Shown here: one piece after another, positions 2,128 through 46,122 of the stretch
Layout: each line of letters starts with the position of its first letter
Numbering within the stretch: the stretch's first letter is position 1
Source: Bacillota bacterium
GTDB taxonomy: Bacteria > Bacillota > UBA5301 > Bu52
Direction of reading: 5' to 3'
DNA: 64,000 bases
Assembly (NCBI GenBank): GCA_014896355.1
Contig: JADBKO010000006.1
Span: 1 to 64,000 of the forward strand
Made by a program: the position numbers and the translations under genes
Notes under the pieces: model-generated
What the model was told of the DNA's origin: nothing
Database searches by the model: none
What the model saw: the letters and a program-made list of their open reading frames with translations, nothing else

Positions 2128-3223
2128 TCGCCCATTCCCCGCCTTTCACCCGCAGGATGACCTCGGTAATATCCAGATGCACCGGGCATTGCTCCACGCA
2201 ACGGCCACATCCCACACAGGCAACGGCGCCATAGCGATCCACAAAATACAGGAGTTTGTGCAGAAACCGCTGGCGTATCCGCTCCTTTTTGGTGGGACGG
2301 GGATTGTGGCCGCCGGCCATCAGTGTAAAATCCCTGAAGCTGCAGGAATCCCAGCACTTGAACCGCAGTCCCTCTTGGCCTCGCTGCCAATCTGCGATGT
2401 CAAAACAGTGGCAGGTGGGGCACACGAAGGTGCAAATCCCGCAGCCCAGGCAACGGGCGGAGAGCTCCTCCCACATGGAGTCGTCAAAACGTTGGCGAAG
2501 CCGGTCCGTGACTCCCTCCATATCCAACTCTAAAGGGTGGGCATTCGCCATCCCTGCCGCCGTCTCCTGCCAGGCCTCCACCTGACCCGCCTGGGCGCGT
2601 GCCAGGTAATCCATGCCAGATTCCAGCCAAGACTGCCCTCGTTGGGTCTGTGCCCATACCAGGTACTGCATTTCGGAGCCCGGCTCTCTTTGGTGCGGGG
2701 CCTGTTCGGAACCCTGTGCCGGGCGACTCTCGCGGGGCAGCGGCGCAAACATCACGTCCGCCTCTGGCGCCGTTGTGGGGTCCACCCCTACGCTCTGGCA
2801 AAAACAGGTGGGGCGGGGATGATCGCAGGCCCAGGCCACCAGGAGGGTTGCGGCCCGGCGGGCCTGGTACTGGCTGTCCGCGAACGGCCCGCCGAACACC
2901 TTGTCCAGCAGGGCCAGACTACGGGCATCACAAGGGCGTATCCCGAAAAGTACCCGCTCCCGGACAGCCTCCGCCACAGGTTCGATGTTCAGCTTGCCCT
3001 CCTCCCGCCGGAAGCGGAAGAGCGGGTCTGTCTGTGGGAAAAAGGCTCCTTTGGCGGGCAGCAGGGGATTGGCGCCGTCCCAGCCGATGGCCAGGCCCGC
3101 CTCCAGGGGCAGGAAAGCCCATACACCGGAGCGGGCTGCAGGAACCAACACTTCCTGCTTCTGCGTCAGACCCCGCAGCCAGGCTTCCGCCCGAGGCCTG
3201 TCTATGACCCAGTATTGCGTCAT
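2120..3223 (-). CDS. flxB: FlxB-like 4Fe-4S dicluster subunit
   Basis: A 367-residue iron-sulfur protein of the sulfhydrogenase-beta / AsrA type. Two ferredoxin-like clusters are visible: CLGCGICTFVCPTCHC from about residue 258 and CVGCGRCVEQCP from about residue 336. Upstream is an RPCDA motif near 97-101, typical of this family. It should carry electrons between the flavin subunit FlxA and the HdrA-FlxD part of the complex in the cytoplasm. The stretch at about residues 145-190 is poorly ordered and proline-rich compared with the rest. AAGGAG lies 9 nt before the ATG at 3223. A 92-nt gap separates it from flxC, the longest gap inside the flx half of the operon. Confidence 0.83.
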   Translation of the reverse strand: MTQYWVIDRPRAEAWLRGLTQKQEVLVPAARSGVWAFLPLEAGLAIGWDGANPLLPAKGAFFPQTDPLFRFRREEGKLNIEPVAEAVRERVLFGIRPCDARSLALLDKVFGGPFADSQYQARRAATLLVAWACDHPRPTCFCQSVGVDPTTAPEADVMFAPLPRESRPAQGSEQAPHQREPGSEMQYLVWAQTQRGQSWLESGMDYLARAQAGQVEAWQETAAGMANAHPLELDMEGVTDRLRQRFDDSMWEELSARCLGCGICTFVCPTCHCFDIADWQRGQEGLRFKCWDSCSFRDFTLMAGGHNPRPTKKERIRQRFLHKLLYFVDRYGAVACVGCGRCVEQCPVHLDITEVILRVKGGEWANV

Positions 3224-3315
3224 GGCAACTTGCTCCTTCGCATTCGGCTTCCGGAAGCCGGGCTCCGCAGCGGTGCCGGCAGGCCGGCTGCTGCCTGGGC
3301 CCGATCGACCCGGGC

Positions 3316-4365
3316 CTAGTCAAACTCGTCGGGATCGTTGAGGCGGAAGCGGGTCAACGCCCATTCCGCTTTCTCCAGCCCGGCCGCAGCCCCTTCCGCG
3401 GCCCCGGCCGCAGCCTTGCCTTCCTGCGGTGCCGGCATCTCCACGGGGCCAAACAACTCTTCCAAATCATGGGACAGTTTGCGGTATAACACCGTCAAGG
3501 GTAACCCCACGGGGCACGCTTCCTCGCACTGGCCGCAGCCCACGCACCGCCCAGCCACGTGCATGGCCCGCGTCAGGTGGAAGAACTGATTTTCCGCCAG
3601 GTTCACAGCCTTCCCCAGCCAACGGGTCTGGGCGTCGTCCAGCACACACTCCCGGCAATCACACACCGGGCAGACGTTGCGGCAGGCAAAACAACGCAGG
3701 CAGCGGCTGAATGCCTCCTCCCAGAAGCGGCCGCGTTCCTCCACGCTCATGGCCTCCAAAGCCGCCACGTCGCCGTAGAGCTGATCGGGGCTGGGATGCC
3801 GTTCCGGTGCCGGTTCGCTGAGCCAGACATCGGGCTCCAGCGCCGCAGGAACGTTGGGCTGCCGGCAGCGGACACATTGCGGGCGCAGCCCCGCGGAGCG
3901 GGACACGGGCTTGCCGTTGAGCTCGAAGCCGTCCGCCCCGGGCTCCGCTGCCGCGGCCACCTGGGCCAAAGCCGCGTCCCAGGCGCCGTCCGGCAGGCCT
4001 GCCGCGTCGGCCACCCGGCCGGCGTCCAGCATGCCGGGGCAGCCAACGGCCAAGACCACCAGGCGTTGCCGGGGAAACTGCTGGTCCCCGATGATGCGCG
4101 CCAGCGCCGCCCCGTCGCAACCCTTGGCCACCACCGCGATTTTCCCGTCCCCAACCCGGTAATCTAACACGTACTTTGCCAGATTGGCACCGCAGAAGGC
4201 GTTCCATACCAACCGGTCCGCGTCTTCCGCTCTGCGGATGAAGGCCGGCCGCGGCTGGCCCGGAAAGCGGCCATCCTCAAAGCCGATGACCACTCCCACC
4301 TGGCCGGACTGCAGCAGGTCCCTGGCCGTCTGCCGCAGCTTTTCCGTGACTGCGTTGACTGTCAC
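3316..4365 (-). CDS. flxC: FlxC-like 4Fe-4S protein
   Basis: A 349-residue cytoplasmic iron-sulfur protein. The N-terminal half resembles the electron-transfer domain of FrhB-like and other 4Fe-4S accessory subunits. The C-terminal half has two cluster motifs, CLRCFACRNVCP at about residues 222-232 followed by more cysteines (VCDCREC), and CVGCGQCEEACP at about 274-284. It starts at GTG 4365, which overlaps the flxD stop as GTGA. The C-terminal 60 residues are alanine-rich and probably flexible. Position and cluster content match FlxC of flxABCD-hdrABC loci. The exact electron path through this subunit is not known from sequence. Confidence 0.78.
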   Translation of the reverse strand: MTVNAVTEKLRQTARDLLQSGQVGVVIGFEDGRFPGQPRPAFIRRAEDADRLVWNAFCGANLAKYVLDYRVGDGKIAVVAKGCDGAALARIIGDQQFPRQRLVVLAVGCPGMLDAGRVADAAGLPDGAWDAALAQVAAAAEPGADGFELNGKPVSRSAGLRPQCVRCRQPNVPAALEPDVWLSEPAPERHPSPDQLYGDVAALEAMSVEERGRFWEEAFSRCLRCFACRNVCPVCDCRECVLDDAQTRWLGKAVNLAENQFFHLTRAMHVAGRCVGCGQCEEACPVGLPLTVLYRKLSHDLEELFGPVEMPAPQEGKAAAGAAEGAAAGLEKAEWALTRFRLNDPDEFD

Positions 4366-41399: not shown

Positions 41400-41465
41400 T
41401 GCCAGCGGCCAGCGCTCGCCCCGCACAGGCCGTGAGCGCCCAGCAGGGGGGCGCCTCGGCGGGGC

Positions 41466-41509
41466 AAAAAAACCGGCTGGCCCGGGTTTCAACGCCTGGA
41501 GCCAGCCGG
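41466..41509 (-). terminator. Rho-independent terminator after the zinc-ribbon gene
   Basis: On the minus strand CCGGCTGGC and GCCAGCCGG form a 9-bp stem followed by seven T. It ends transcription coming leftward from 41.6 kb and lies in the convergent gap with the GH13 gene. Confidence 0.85.
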
Positions 41510-41578
41510 AAAATCACCACAATGCCGCGGCTTGTGGTGCGTGATTTACTGCGAAAGGTCTGCGAAGCAGAGGGCTGA

Positions 41579-41755
41579 TCAGACTACCGTACGCAGATAC
41601 ACGCGCTTGGTCAGGGAATCGAGGGTCTTGCGCAGGCCCGACTTCTTCGGAACCGCTCGCCCACTGTTCTTGCCAGTGAGCTCAGCGCCGCACTTGGTGC
41701 AGTAGCTCTGCCAACTGCCGTTCTCCTGGCCGCAATCAGGGCACCGCTTACTCAT
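41579..41755 (-). CDS. Small zinc-ribbon protein
   Basis: A 58-residue protein beginning MSKRCPDCGQENGSWQSYCT and continuing KCG: two CxxC knuckles of a double-zinc-ribbon type, then a short basic tail (KKSGLRKTLDSLTKRV). The start is the ATG at 41755 with AAAGGAG 11 nt upstream; the frame continues to 41833 but without a better site. A dedicated terminator follows. Function unknown. Confidence 0.75.
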   Translation of the reverse strand: MSKRCPDCGQENGSWQSYCTKCGAELTGKNSGRAVPKKSGLRKTLDSLTKRVYLRTVV

Positions 41756-41845
41756 GGTTTCGTCGTCTCCTTTGGTTTTTCCAACCTTTTTTCTTTGTAC
41801 GGCTTCATCATAGGTCTGCCATGTTGCGGCCACTTTGACAAAAAG

Positions 41846-41860
41846 TTAACAATGTGTTAA
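41846..41860. promoter_or_regulatory. 15-bp palindrome overlapping the aldolase remnant
   Basis: TTAACA-ATG-TGTTAA is a perfect 6+3+6 palindrome in an AT-rich patch. On the plus strand TTGACA (41835-41840) precedes it, with TTAAAT 16 bp further on, resembling a promoter. It could be an operator; the regulator is not evident. Confidence 0.35.
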
Positions 41861-41916
41861 ATCTGTCCCCCGGCCACCGCCTGGGGGAGGACCTCATTCA
41901 GCGTGGCGAGCGGCAT
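41857..41916 (-). pseudogene. Remnant of a class II fructose/tagatose-bisphosphate aldolase gene (first 19 codons)
   Basis: After the SIS gene the minus strand has a good ribosome site (AAAGGAG, 9 nt spacer) and an ATG at 41916. It opens a 19-residue peptide MPLATLNEVLPQAVAGGQI and then TAA. This is what the N-terminus of class II ketose-bisphosphate aldolases looks like (MPLV-x-KEML-x-KA-x-GYAV). Nothing aldolase-like follows in any frame; the sequence changes at once to AT-rich intergenic DNA. I read it as a deletion that removed the rest of the last gene of the sugar operon. A genuine 19-residue peptide gene is the alternative. Confidence 0.6.
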
Positions 41917-41939
41917 GGTTTCGTTCTCCTTTCCTCGCC

Positions 41940-43016
41940 TCAAGCCGGCGGGTCGAGCCGGGTGACAGCCGACAGGTGGACCGGCCGGTCGGGGTCGAGG
42001 CCCTTGGCTTGGGCCAGGAAAAACCCGAGCCACTGCAGGAACGGCAAGTAAAGCGCACCGCAGGCGGGCTGGGCCAACCCCGATTCCAGCACGAGCTGGG
42101 CCTGGGGCGGTAGACCCGGCAACGGGCGCTCGGTGACCGCCAGGACCCGCGCTCCCAAACCGGCCAATTCGAGTGCCACCGGGAGTTCGAGATCCCGGCC
42201 TTCTTCCGTGGCGAGATAGACGACCAGGCTGTCCGGGGAGATCAGCGCTTTCGGACCATGTCGGAACTCCAACGGATGGTAAGCCTCTGAGTTCTGGATG
42301 GCCATCTCCTTCACTTTCAGCATCCCCTCGCAGGCCAGGCCGTAGCACGGCCCGCCGCCGAGAAAGAACACCGTGTCCGGACGGCCGGCGGCCACCGTGG
42401 TTTCAGCCAACGCCCGCCCCTGCTCTACGGCCGCGCGGCCCGTGCCGGGCAAACGCTCCAGGTCCGCCAGGACTTCCGTCCGCCCCGCCGCCGTGGCCGC
42501 TGCATACTGCGCGTAAAGCAGCATGCTGGTGAAGGACTGGGTCATGACCACACTGTCCTCGGTCACTCCCCGGAGCACGAACGCCTCAGCGCACGCCCCG
42601 GGCAATGGGGTGCCGGGAGAGCAGGTGATGGCGACGGTGCGGACGTCGCCGCGTGCCCCCAGGGCCTCGGCGGCTCGCACGGCTTCGGTCGTCTCCCCCG
42701 AGCGGGAGAAGAGCACGGCCAGATAAGGGCGGGATGATTCGAGGGCGGCCTGGGGGTACAGGAGGATCTCCGAGGCTGGGAGAGCCCGGGCCGCCCGGCC
42801 CGTGAGGAGGCGGAACCCGGACGCTGCCGCAAGGGCGAGGTAATAGGAAGTGCCACAGCCGATGAACAGCGTCTCTTCGCCGTCCCCGGCGGCGAAGACC
42901 CGCCGCAGGCGCCCGGCGTCGAGCGCCGCTCCTTCCAGCACCTGCCGCCACACCTCCGGCTGTGCGCTGATCTCCCGGCGGGTCTTGGCCCCGGGCATTC
43001 GCTCGTTCTGATTCAT
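41940..43016 (-). CDS. SIS-domain sugar-phosphate isomerase/deaminase (GlmS-isomerase/AgaS-like)
   Basis: A 358-residue protein with two SIS domains. The first has FIGCGTSYYLALAAASGFRL and a phosphate-binding VLFSRSGETTEAVRAAE; the second has FLGGGPCYGLACEGMLKVKE, then EAYHPLEFRHGPKALI. No glutaminase domain is present, so it is a deaminase/isomerase or deglycase (AgaS/FrlB-like) rather than GlmS. It starts 2 nt after the GH57-like gene with GGGGGAGG 10 nt before the ATG. Context suggests breakdown of an amino sugar or glycated compound. Confidence 0.85.
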   Translation of the reverse strand: MNQNERMPGAKTRREISAQPEVWRQVLEGAALDAGRLRRVFAAGDGEETLFIGCGTSYYLALAAASGFRLLTGRAARALPASEILLYPQAALESSRPYLAVLFSRSGETTEAVRAAEALGARGDVRTVAITCSPGTPLPGACAEAFVLRGVTEDSVVMTQSFTSMLLYAQYAAATAAGRTEVLADLERLPGTGRAAVEQGRALAETTVAAGRPDTVFFLGGGPCYGLACEGMLKVKEMAIQNSEAYHPLEFRHGPKALISPDSLVVYLATEEGRDLELPVALELAGLGARVLAVTERPLPGLPPQAQLVLESGLAQPACGALYLPFLQWLGFFLAQAKGLDPDRPVHLSAVTRLDPPA

Positions 43017-43018
43017 GT

Positions 43019-44230
43019 CTATCGTTCCTCCCCCGTCGGCCTTTTCGGCACCAGGGACAGGGCTTCACCGGCCAGGCGGGTCGCCTCCAGCGCCGCCGTG
43101 GCGACCGCCAGCTTCCGGGTCGGATGGGGGACAAAAGCCCGGCCGTCGCTGTTCTCAGCCAGCATGAGCTGGCGGCGGCCTTCCCGGAGGACCGCCTTCG
43201 CTTCGCCGGTGGCCAAGCCGAGCCGCTCCGCCAAGCGCAGGGCGTACTCCGCCGCGGTGAGCGACTGTCGGGCGGCGTCGGTCAAGACGTTCAGCCGCTC
43301 GCGGCCCTCCCCCCTGAGCCACGCATCCATCCCGGCATGCCCGGAGATATTCTCGGCGTAGACCGTCTCGGCCGGCGGATGTCCCGCCAGAAAGCTCCCG
43401 ATGGTGGTGAACTCCACTTCGGGCAACGTCTCCAGGTAAGACCAGAGTTCGTCGAGGCGGTCGGCCGCCTCCACCTCGGGCAGTGGATCGCCCCACCGGA
43501 GGCGGCCCTTCTCCCGGTAGTACTCGATCGAGGTGAAGTACAACACTTCGGCGTCCTGTTTGACCAGAAGGAGCTGGTCCCTGCCCGGCCGCCCGGCCTG
43601 CCGCAGCTCTTCGATCAGCTTGGCGAGGCGGGGCAGCCCCAGCTCGCCCCGGAGAAAGGCCTGAATCTGTTTGCCGAGGACCCGGTGGCCCAAGACCGCC
43701 GGTACAGTCGCGCCACCGGCCCCCTGGACCAAGACCGACCCAGGGAAGTCCGGCGCCTCGGCGTACTTCGGGACGATTTCCTTATAGATCGCCACCCACT
43801 TGAGTCCGGCAAGTTCCATGGCGCGGGGCAAAGCGACGTCCCAGGCGACTTCCGGCAGGAGGAAGCCGGCCGGCCGGATGCCCCAGGTGGCCTCGTCCGC
43901 CTCGAGGCCCAGGAGGATCTGCTCCACCACGTCGGCGAAGGGGATGAGCGACAACACGGGGTGGGCGTAAGTATAGGTTCCCAATCCGAACTGGCCACGG
44001 CCCAGCCCGGCCTTTACCCGCGCGATGACGTCCGAGGCGTGGTCGCGCAGGTACTCATCGGTCACGCCGGTGAAGAAGAGATCGGCCTTGAGGCGCGGGT
44101 GGCGCTCCAGCAGGTCGAGAAGCGGGCGGTGCCCCTGTTCGACCAGAAGCCGGGTCTGGTCGACCGGCATCTCGGCGAACTGCAGGTTGAAGTTGAACAT
44201 GTGGCCGATGAAAAGCTTGGGGAGACTCAT
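43019..44230 (-). CDS. GH57-like carbohydrate-active protein of unknown specificity
   Basis: A 403-residue cytoplasmic protein without a signal. LFIGHMFNFNLQFAEMPV at the start, GQFGLGTYTYAHPVLSLIPF, a GFLLPEVAWDVALPRAME motif and a C-terminal AENSDGRAFVPHPTRKL segment resemble the (beta/alpha)7 barrels of GH57 or GH38-type enzymes. The glutamate in LPE and an aspartate in KQDAEVLYF are candidate catalytic residues, but I cannot match the five GH57 motifs fully. The start is ATG 44230 with GGAAGTGG upstream; the frame runs on to 44404 over the pfkB-like gene. It sits between a sugar kinase and an isomerase in one operon. Confidence 0.55.
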   Translation of the reverse strand: MSLPKLFIGHMFNFNLQFAEMPVDQTRLLVEQGHRPLLDLLERHPRLKADLFFTGVTDEYLRDHASDVIARVKAGLGRGQFGLGTYTYAHPVLSLIPFADVVEQILLGLEADEATWGIRPAGFLLPEVAWDVALPRAMELAGLKWVAIYKEIVPKYAEAPDFPGSVLVQGAGGATVPAVLGHRVLGKQIQAFLRGELGLPRLAKLIEELRQAGRPGRDQLLLVKQDAEVLYFTSIEYYREKGRLRWGDPLPEVEAADRLDELWSYLETLPEVEFTTIGSFLAGHPPAETVYAENISGHAGMDAWLRGEGRERLNVLTDAARQSLTAAEYALRLAERLGLATGEAKAVLREGRRQLMLAENSDGRAFVPHPTRKLAVATAALEATRLAGEALSLVPKRPTGEER

Positions 44231-44253: not shown

Positions 44254-45201
44254 TCAGATTGGACGAGGTCTGGCCTCGGTCAGGAACTGCTCGACTTGGC
44301 GCAAACCGGCAAACCCCTCCGCACCGCCGACGGCCTGGACGGCCAGGGCCCCACAAGCGGCCCCCAGGCGCAACGATTCCTCCAGGCCGCGGCCGGTGAG
44401 CCAACCGTAGAGGAAACCGGCGTCGAAGGAGTCGCCTGCCCCAGTCGGGTCCACGACCTCCACCTCAAAGGCAGGGATCTGCGCCCTGTAGCCCCGTCCA
44501 ACGGCCACCGCGCCCCGCCCCCCGCACTTCACCACGGAGAGGGGCCCGGCTTGGCTCAGCCGGTCCAGGGCTTCGTCGAGAGTGGTCGAGCGGGTCAGGG
44601 CCAGCGCCTCCGCCTCGCTCGGCAGGAAAAGGTCGAGGTGGGGCAGCAGCGGATCCAGCGGCGGTGCGAACCGTTCTTCGGGGTCCCAGCCGGGGTCCAG
44701 CGAGGTGGTGAGGCCGAGGGCCTTCGCCCGGGCGAAGAGCGCGGCATAATCCTCCCGGAGGTTCCGGTGGAGGAAGTACGACGAGAGGTGCAGGTGCCGG
44801 GCTCTGAGCAGTAGATCGTCGGGGAGGTCGCCGGCGGTCAGGTCGCCCATGACCCCCGGGAATGTGAGGAGAGCCCGGTCCCCGGCGTAGGCGAGGGAGA
44901 CCGTGAAACCGGTGGGCTGGTCGGGGTGCAGCTTGACCCGGGACACGTCGACCCCGCAGCGGGTCAGGTAGTCGAGGCAGAACCGCCCGGCGACGTCCTC
45001 GCCCACATGGGCGACCAGCGCCACCGGCAGGCCGAGCTTGGCGACCCCGGCTGCACAGATGGCGGTGGAACTGCCCAAAGTCAGACGGGCGCCCCGGACG
45101 AAGACCTCCCGCCCGGGAACCGGCGGCTGTCCAAGCCCCGTGACGATCAGGTCGGGGTTCAGCTCGCCCACGGCCAAAAGAGCAAACTCCTTTTTCATCA
45201 T
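44254..45201 (-). CDS. PfkB-family sugar kinase
   Basis: A 315-residue ribokinase-like kinase. GELNPDLIVTGLGQPPVPG opens the fold, GSSTAICAAGVAKLG is the first PfkB signature region and DPTGAGDSFDAGFL is the ATP/anion-hole signature with the catalytic Asp. It would phosphorylate a sugar or sugar phosphate handled by the SIS protein. ATG 45198 has better spacing from GGAGG than ATG 45201. It follows the GntR gene by 63 nt. Confidence 0.9.
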   Translation of the reverse strand: MMKKEFALLAVGELNPDLIVTGLGQPPVPGREVFVRGARLTLGSSTAICAAGVAKLGLPVALVAHVGEDVAGRFCLDYLTRCGVDVSRVKLHPDQPTGFTVSLAYAGDRALLTFPGVMGDLTAGDLPDDLLLRARHLHLSSYFLHRNLREDYAALFARAKALGLTTSLDPGWDPEERFAPPLDPLLPHLDLFLPSEAEALALTRSTTLDEALDRLSQAGPLSVVKCGGRGAVAVGRGYRAQIPAFEVEVVDPTGAGDSFDAGFLYGWLTGRGLEESLRLGAACGALAVQAVGGAEGFAGLRQVEQFLTEARPRPI

Positions 45202-45264: not shown

Positions 45265-45999
45265 TCACTCCTCGGGCAGTTCGACGGAGAAGCGGCACTT
45301 GTCGCCCCGGACGATGCTGGTGCAAAACTCGACGCACCGCCCGTTGGCGGCGAAGGCGACCCGCTCGACCAGCAACGCCGGCGAGCCAGGTTTGGCTTGC
45401 AGGATCTTGGCCTGGTGGTCACGCAGCAAGACGGGCTCGAAGGACTCTCTGGCTTTGACCGGGCGGATCCCGTACTTCTCGGCCATTAGCGTGTAGAGCG
45501 GGACGTGGGCATGGTCATCGGTGAGCATCTCCGGAAACAGATCCGCCGGCAGGAAAGAAGTTTCGAGCATGACCGGCTCCTCGTCGGCCAGGCGCAGACG
45601 GGTCAGGCTGAGCACGGGCGTCTCCGGCGCCAGACGCAACTGAGTGGCGACCCTGGCGGAAGCGGGGACTTTCACCAACTTCAGGACCTGCGAGCGAGGA
45701 GTGCGGCCGAGCCGCCGCATGTTCTCGGTAAAGCTGTAGAACCTGGAGAGGCCTTGTTCCAACTTGGGCGGAGCGACAAAACTGCCCTTGCCCTGGCGGC
45801 TTACCACCAAGCCCTCGCTGGCGAGTTCGGCGATCGCCTGGCGGACCGTGGCCCGGCTGACGCCGTAGGTCTCGAGCAACTCCCGCTCCGAGGGGAGTTT
45901 CTCGTGCGGCCGCAGCCGGCCGGAGAGGATCTCCTCTTTGAGCAGCTCTTTCAACTGATGGTAGAGAGGGACCGCACCGGTGGGGTCCAGCAAGGTCAT
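45265..45999 (-). CDS. GntR/HutC-family transcriptional regulator
   Basis: A 244-residue regulator with an N-terminal winged helix (VPLYHQLKELLKEEILSGRL and YGVSRATVRQAIAEL) and a C-terminal UTRA effector domain (SRFYSFTENMRRLGRTPRS ... FCTSIVRGDKCRFSVEL). UTRA proteins usually bind a phosphorylated sugar or amino sugar. I place the start at ATG 45999 with AGGGG 9 nt upstream; the ATG at 46008 abuts it. An 11-bp palindrome CCTGT-C-ACAGG (46011-46021) overlaps the ribosome site. It heads the kinase-GH57-like-SIS-aldolase operon. Confidence 0.9.
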   Translation of the reverse strand: MTLLDPTGAVPLYHQLKELLKEEILSGRLRPHEKLPSERELLETYGVSRATVRQAIAELASEGLVVSRQGKGSFVAPPKLEQGLSRFYSFTENMRRLGRTPRSQVLKLVKVPASARVATQLRLAPETPVLSLTRLRLADEEPVMLETSFLPADLFPEMLTDDHAHVPLYTLMAEKYGIRPVKARESFEPVLLRDHQAKILQAKPGSPALLVERVAFAANGRCVEFCTSIVRGDKCRFSVELPEE

Positions 46000-46122
46000 G
46001 TCGCACATCCCCTGTCACAGGCTGGTTCGCTTAACCGGTCATCAGCTTATCCGTACCACCTAGCTTATAATTTCCACGCCAACCCGCAAAGTCCTGCCGA
46101 CCTGCGAACTGCCTGCAGCGTA

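Follow-up and report, generated by a model that had tools for sequence, protein, structure and literature searches.

In E. coli, the aga/gam cluster contains the gene agaS, whose SIS-domain product was proposed to be a galactosamine-6-phosphate deaminase/isomerase, and downstream of it kbaY, which encodes a tagatose-bisphosphate aldolase of class II (PMC3668189). We analysed a similar arrangement on the minus strand of a 64,000-nt stretch of DNA from a member of the Bacillota (the window). Here, too, a SIS-domain gene is followed by a reading frame resembling the start of a class II aldolase gene. Unlike in E. coli, however, this frame is a stub of 19 codons, and the neighbouring genes encode a GntR/UTRA regulator, a PfkB kinase and a GH57-like protein. 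The PfkB protein is a putative sugar-phosphate kinase as expected of an AgaS-type amino-sugar operon; of the expected bisphosphate aldolase, only the stub was found.

Gene content of the operon

In its own direction, the operon starts with the gene of the GntR/UTRA regulator (247 aa, 45265..46008), followed by those of the PfkB-family sugar kinase (315 aa, 44254..45201; match to PfkB, 9.3e-49), the GH57-like protein (403 aa, 43019..44230) and the SIS-domain protein (358 aa, 41940..43016), and ends with the stub. The four genes upstream of the stub are all still open, and those of the regulator, the kinase and the SIS protein are intact. Promoter and terminator scans across the operon gave signals near background.

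The SIS domain was recognised at 7.5e-23. The protein is similar to members of the GlmD, GlmS and AgaS families, although it remains under every curated cut-off; its match to agaS_fam (E 3.9e-30) reaches 105 bits, whereas the cut-off is 529, and the match to GlmD has a higher score. We describe it as a putative AgaS/GlmS/GlmD-like sugar-phosphate isomerase or deaminase.

The GH57-like gene was absent from the account of the operon in the sequence-only reading. Its product has no NCBIfam match and may be a so far uncharacterised enzyme of the pathway, of a deacetylase- or glycosidase-like type. It is 46% identical over nearly its full length to the product of positions 3003-4214 of locus L032 in genome G390, and in these two distant genomes both genes are located near SIS genes. 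Since a search of 119 other relatives yielded no homolog at E <= 1e-15, the GH57-like protein was of no use for locating the operon elsewhere, and G390 itself was found via its SIS gene.

A stub resembling the N-terminus of class II aldolases

The stop codon of the SIS gene (TGA, 41942-41940) is separated from the ATG of the stub at 41916 by a gap of 23 nt (41917..41939), which contains the ribosome site AAAGGAG. The frame encodes the peptide MPLATLNEVLPQAVAGGQI and ends directly after it with TAA (41916-41857, minus strand), in agreement with the proposal that a well-placed ribosome site and an ATG open a peptide of 19 residues.

The proposed similarity of this peptide to the start of class II ketose-bisphosphate aldolases was evaluated with a position-specific profile, built from 29 distinct gap-free N-termini of class II aldolases from the same phylum and from SIS-linked loci. 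A simple criterion combining ribosome site, ATG and distance was used to pick the start codons of these references, which introduces error. The first 18 residues of the stub scored 11.4 bits, the highest value among 5732 start-codon 18-mers taken from the window and from two additional stretches of this genome; the second-best 18-mer reached 5.3 bits and the mean of all was -32. Shuffled versions of the stub peptide reached this score in three of 200,000 cases. True members reach 16-52 bits in a leave-one-out comparison, and the stub is below all of them. As judged from its sequence, the stub is thus diverged, yet a clear outlier when compared to the other start 18-mers. It matches the nearest aldolase sequences at 9 of 18 positions and can be aligned gap-free to the profile over positions 1-17, so that the N-terminal motif MPLVT..ELL..A..GGYAVGAFN is recognisable at the start codon. 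The YAVGAFN part of the motif is lost, and the aldolase signal is confined to 18 residues.

Because the frame ends after 19 codons, the full-length PF01116 domain (approximately 277 positions, including the zinc ligands) is not present. A tblastn search with two full aldolases as queries did not reveal the rest of an aldolase within the window; therefore, the approximately 260 remaining codons are absent and not frameshifted. A frameshift or a point mutation leading to a stop codon was ruled out as an explanation, since there is no aldolase sequence downstream in any frame. The presumed deletion junction is located at approximately 41857-41865. The sequence-only reading had the frame run into AT-rich DNA, and indeed the GC content is 20% across the 20 nt from 41860 down; however, this AT-rich part at the beginning of the interval separating the stub from the following gene (41774..41856) comprises only about 20-30 nt and is followed by sequence with about 50% GC. 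At third codon positions, the stub has a GC content of 0.80, compared with 0.83-0.87 for the genes of the operon and 0.76 for the downstream zinc-ribbon gene; with 20 codons, the value of the stub says little on its age, although the sequence-only reading described the loss as recent-looking.

Aldolase genes near SIS genes in related genomes

When 60 relatives, the closest of which belong to the same class, were searched at the DNA level for this region, no homologous stretch was revealed. We examined 17 loci, each harbouring a relative of the SIS protein. A bisphosphate aldolase gene was found nearby in 15 of them, nine times of class II (L004, L029, L030, L031, L032, L033, L034, L036 and L037) and six times of the LacD-like type (L003 and L005-L009). 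The fetched stretches of L035 and L038 contained neither a class II nor a LacD-like aldolase gene, and the link in L036 is loose, with the aldolase gene approximately 6 kb away on the opposite strand. Since class II aldolase genes are mostly present in one to a few copies per genome, this clustering of SIS and aldolase genes would be far above chance. Together with the N-terminal profile, it supports the view that the stub at the end of this GntR/PfkB/SIS operon is of class II aldolase type.

A similar arrangement was found in L004, from a Bacillota metagenome-assembled genome (JAJYTO010000045.1), where the SIS protein is 37% identical to that of the window and a full class II aldolase gene (PF01116, E 3.9e-99) begins 31 nt downstream of the SIS gene, in the same orientation. 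In contrast to the window, the aldolase gene of L004 is intact, the kinase encoded upstream looks ROK-like, and no homolog of the GH57-like gene was found. In L032, genes for a GH57-like protein, a SIS protein (34% identical) and a class II aldolase are located on one strand, but the aldolase gene is intact, the gene order is different and other genes are interposed. The loci L003 and L005-L009 carry a SIS gene (product 28-40% identical to that of the window) in the vicinity of a gene for a bisphosphate-type aldolase, and the PfkB protein of L003 is 40% identical to that of the window; however, their aldolases belong to the DeoC/LacD family and not to class II. Judged by these gene contents, the alternation between class II and LacD-like genes beside SIS genes of this kind looks like a non-orthologous aldolase swap in the same pathway. 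The finding that such SIS genes are usually accompanied by a gene for a bisphosphate-type aldolase, from either of two families, may aid the annotation of such operons.

Other aldolases in the genome

Following the suggestion to look for an aldolase elsewhere in the genome, we detected one PF01116 gene, which is intact and located on contig C103, and no fragment of a second one on any contig. Its N-terminus differs from the stub, and therefore the stub is not a copy of the start of this gene. The genome also harbours a PF01950 gene (553 bits), a family which we take to be that of the bifunctional fructose-bisphosphate aldolases/phosphatases, and a DeoC-family gene whose sequence, judged by eye, looks like that of a deoxyribose-phosphate aldolase. 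The pathway of the operon may thus be broken, or it may be served in trans by other aldolases. The intact class II gene and the gene of aldolase/phosphatase type weaken the claim that the loss is functionally meaningful.

Origin of the stub

We consider it probable that the stub is a deletion remnant of the class II aldolase gene of this operon. According to this explanation, the last gene of the operon would formerly have encoded a class II aldolase of the tagatose- or fructose-bisphosphate type, and a deletion would have removed all but approximately its first 18 codons. The remnant would have been joined to the upstream region of the small zinc-ribbon gene, so that translation of the stub would halt at once. 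The deletion event, the original substrate and the compensation for the lost step by other aldolases encoded in this genome are what we infer from the present gene content. Alternatively, the aldolase gene could be intact in some or all cells, with a wrong sequence joined after codon 18 by an assembly error or by the collapse of mixed strains. The genome is present in 128 contigs with a completeness of 94.7%, and the junction is marked by an abrupt drop in composition; both observations speak for this alternative. However, the site is in the middle of a contig of 81 kb, and a search of the genome with the junction sequence gave short GC-rich matches only and no strong repeat, which makes a repeat-driven misjoin less likely; moreover, no orphan aldolase fragment was found on any contig. 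Altogether, we regard an artificial junction or a mixture of strains as rather unlikely.

It is improbable that the frame after the SIS gene was never part of an aldolase gene and resembles one by chance. The comparison of only 18 residues and the score of 11.4 bits, as against 16-52 bits for true members, would be compatible with a chance resemblance, but the stub is the best of the 5732 start codons, has a ribosome site and directly follows a SIS gene, the relatives of which are usually accompanied by an aldolase gene. If the short frame had a function of its own, for instance in translational coupling or as a leader to the zinc-ribbon gene, this would be in line with the intact ribosome site and with the nearly identical leader of that gene; since the resemblance to aldolases would then be accidental or secondary, and no known RNA element was found at the site, we consider this quite improbable. 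The candidate RNA element was rejected, as there were two weak matches only, far under the gathering scores. A combined scenario, in which the aldolase step was passed to the class II enzyme encoded on C103 or to the PF01950-type enzyme, while the stub with its twin leader became a coupling frame for the zinc-ribbon gene, seems highly improbable to us.

Taken as a deletion remnant, the stub provides a small and clean case of pathway erosion, in which the genes of the isomerase/deaminase, the kinase and the regulator are open while only the initial codons are left of the gene for the last enzyme. Most likely, this is ordinary gene decay of low wider importance.

Twin leaders of the stub and the zinc-ribbon gene

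The next gene downstream, on the same strand as the stub, encodes a small zinc-ribbon protein (41579..41752, in a frame starting with an ATG at approximately 41755). On the minus strand, its leader AAAGGAGACGACGAAACCATG (41753-41773) differs from the leader of the stub, AAAGGAGAACGAAACCATG (41914-41932), solely by an indel of 2 nt, and the two are 161 bp apart. No other occurrence of GGAG with a spacing of at most 6 nt before ACGAAACCATG was found in the 2.6 Mb genome. When 171,188 pairs formed by other start contexts were compared, only three scored as high as the twin leaders, and all three are GC-rich. Based on this sequence comparison, a common origin of the two leaders is likely. An ungapped repeat search of the region 41400-42100 yielded no repeat of at least 12 nt, and is blind to the twin leaders owing to the 2-nt indel.

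Further downstream, a perfect inverted repeat of 9 bp (CCGGCTGGC/GCCAGCCGG, 41473-41509, minus strand) with a T-run on the minus-strand side was observed, which is a possible terminator after the zinc-ribbon gene.
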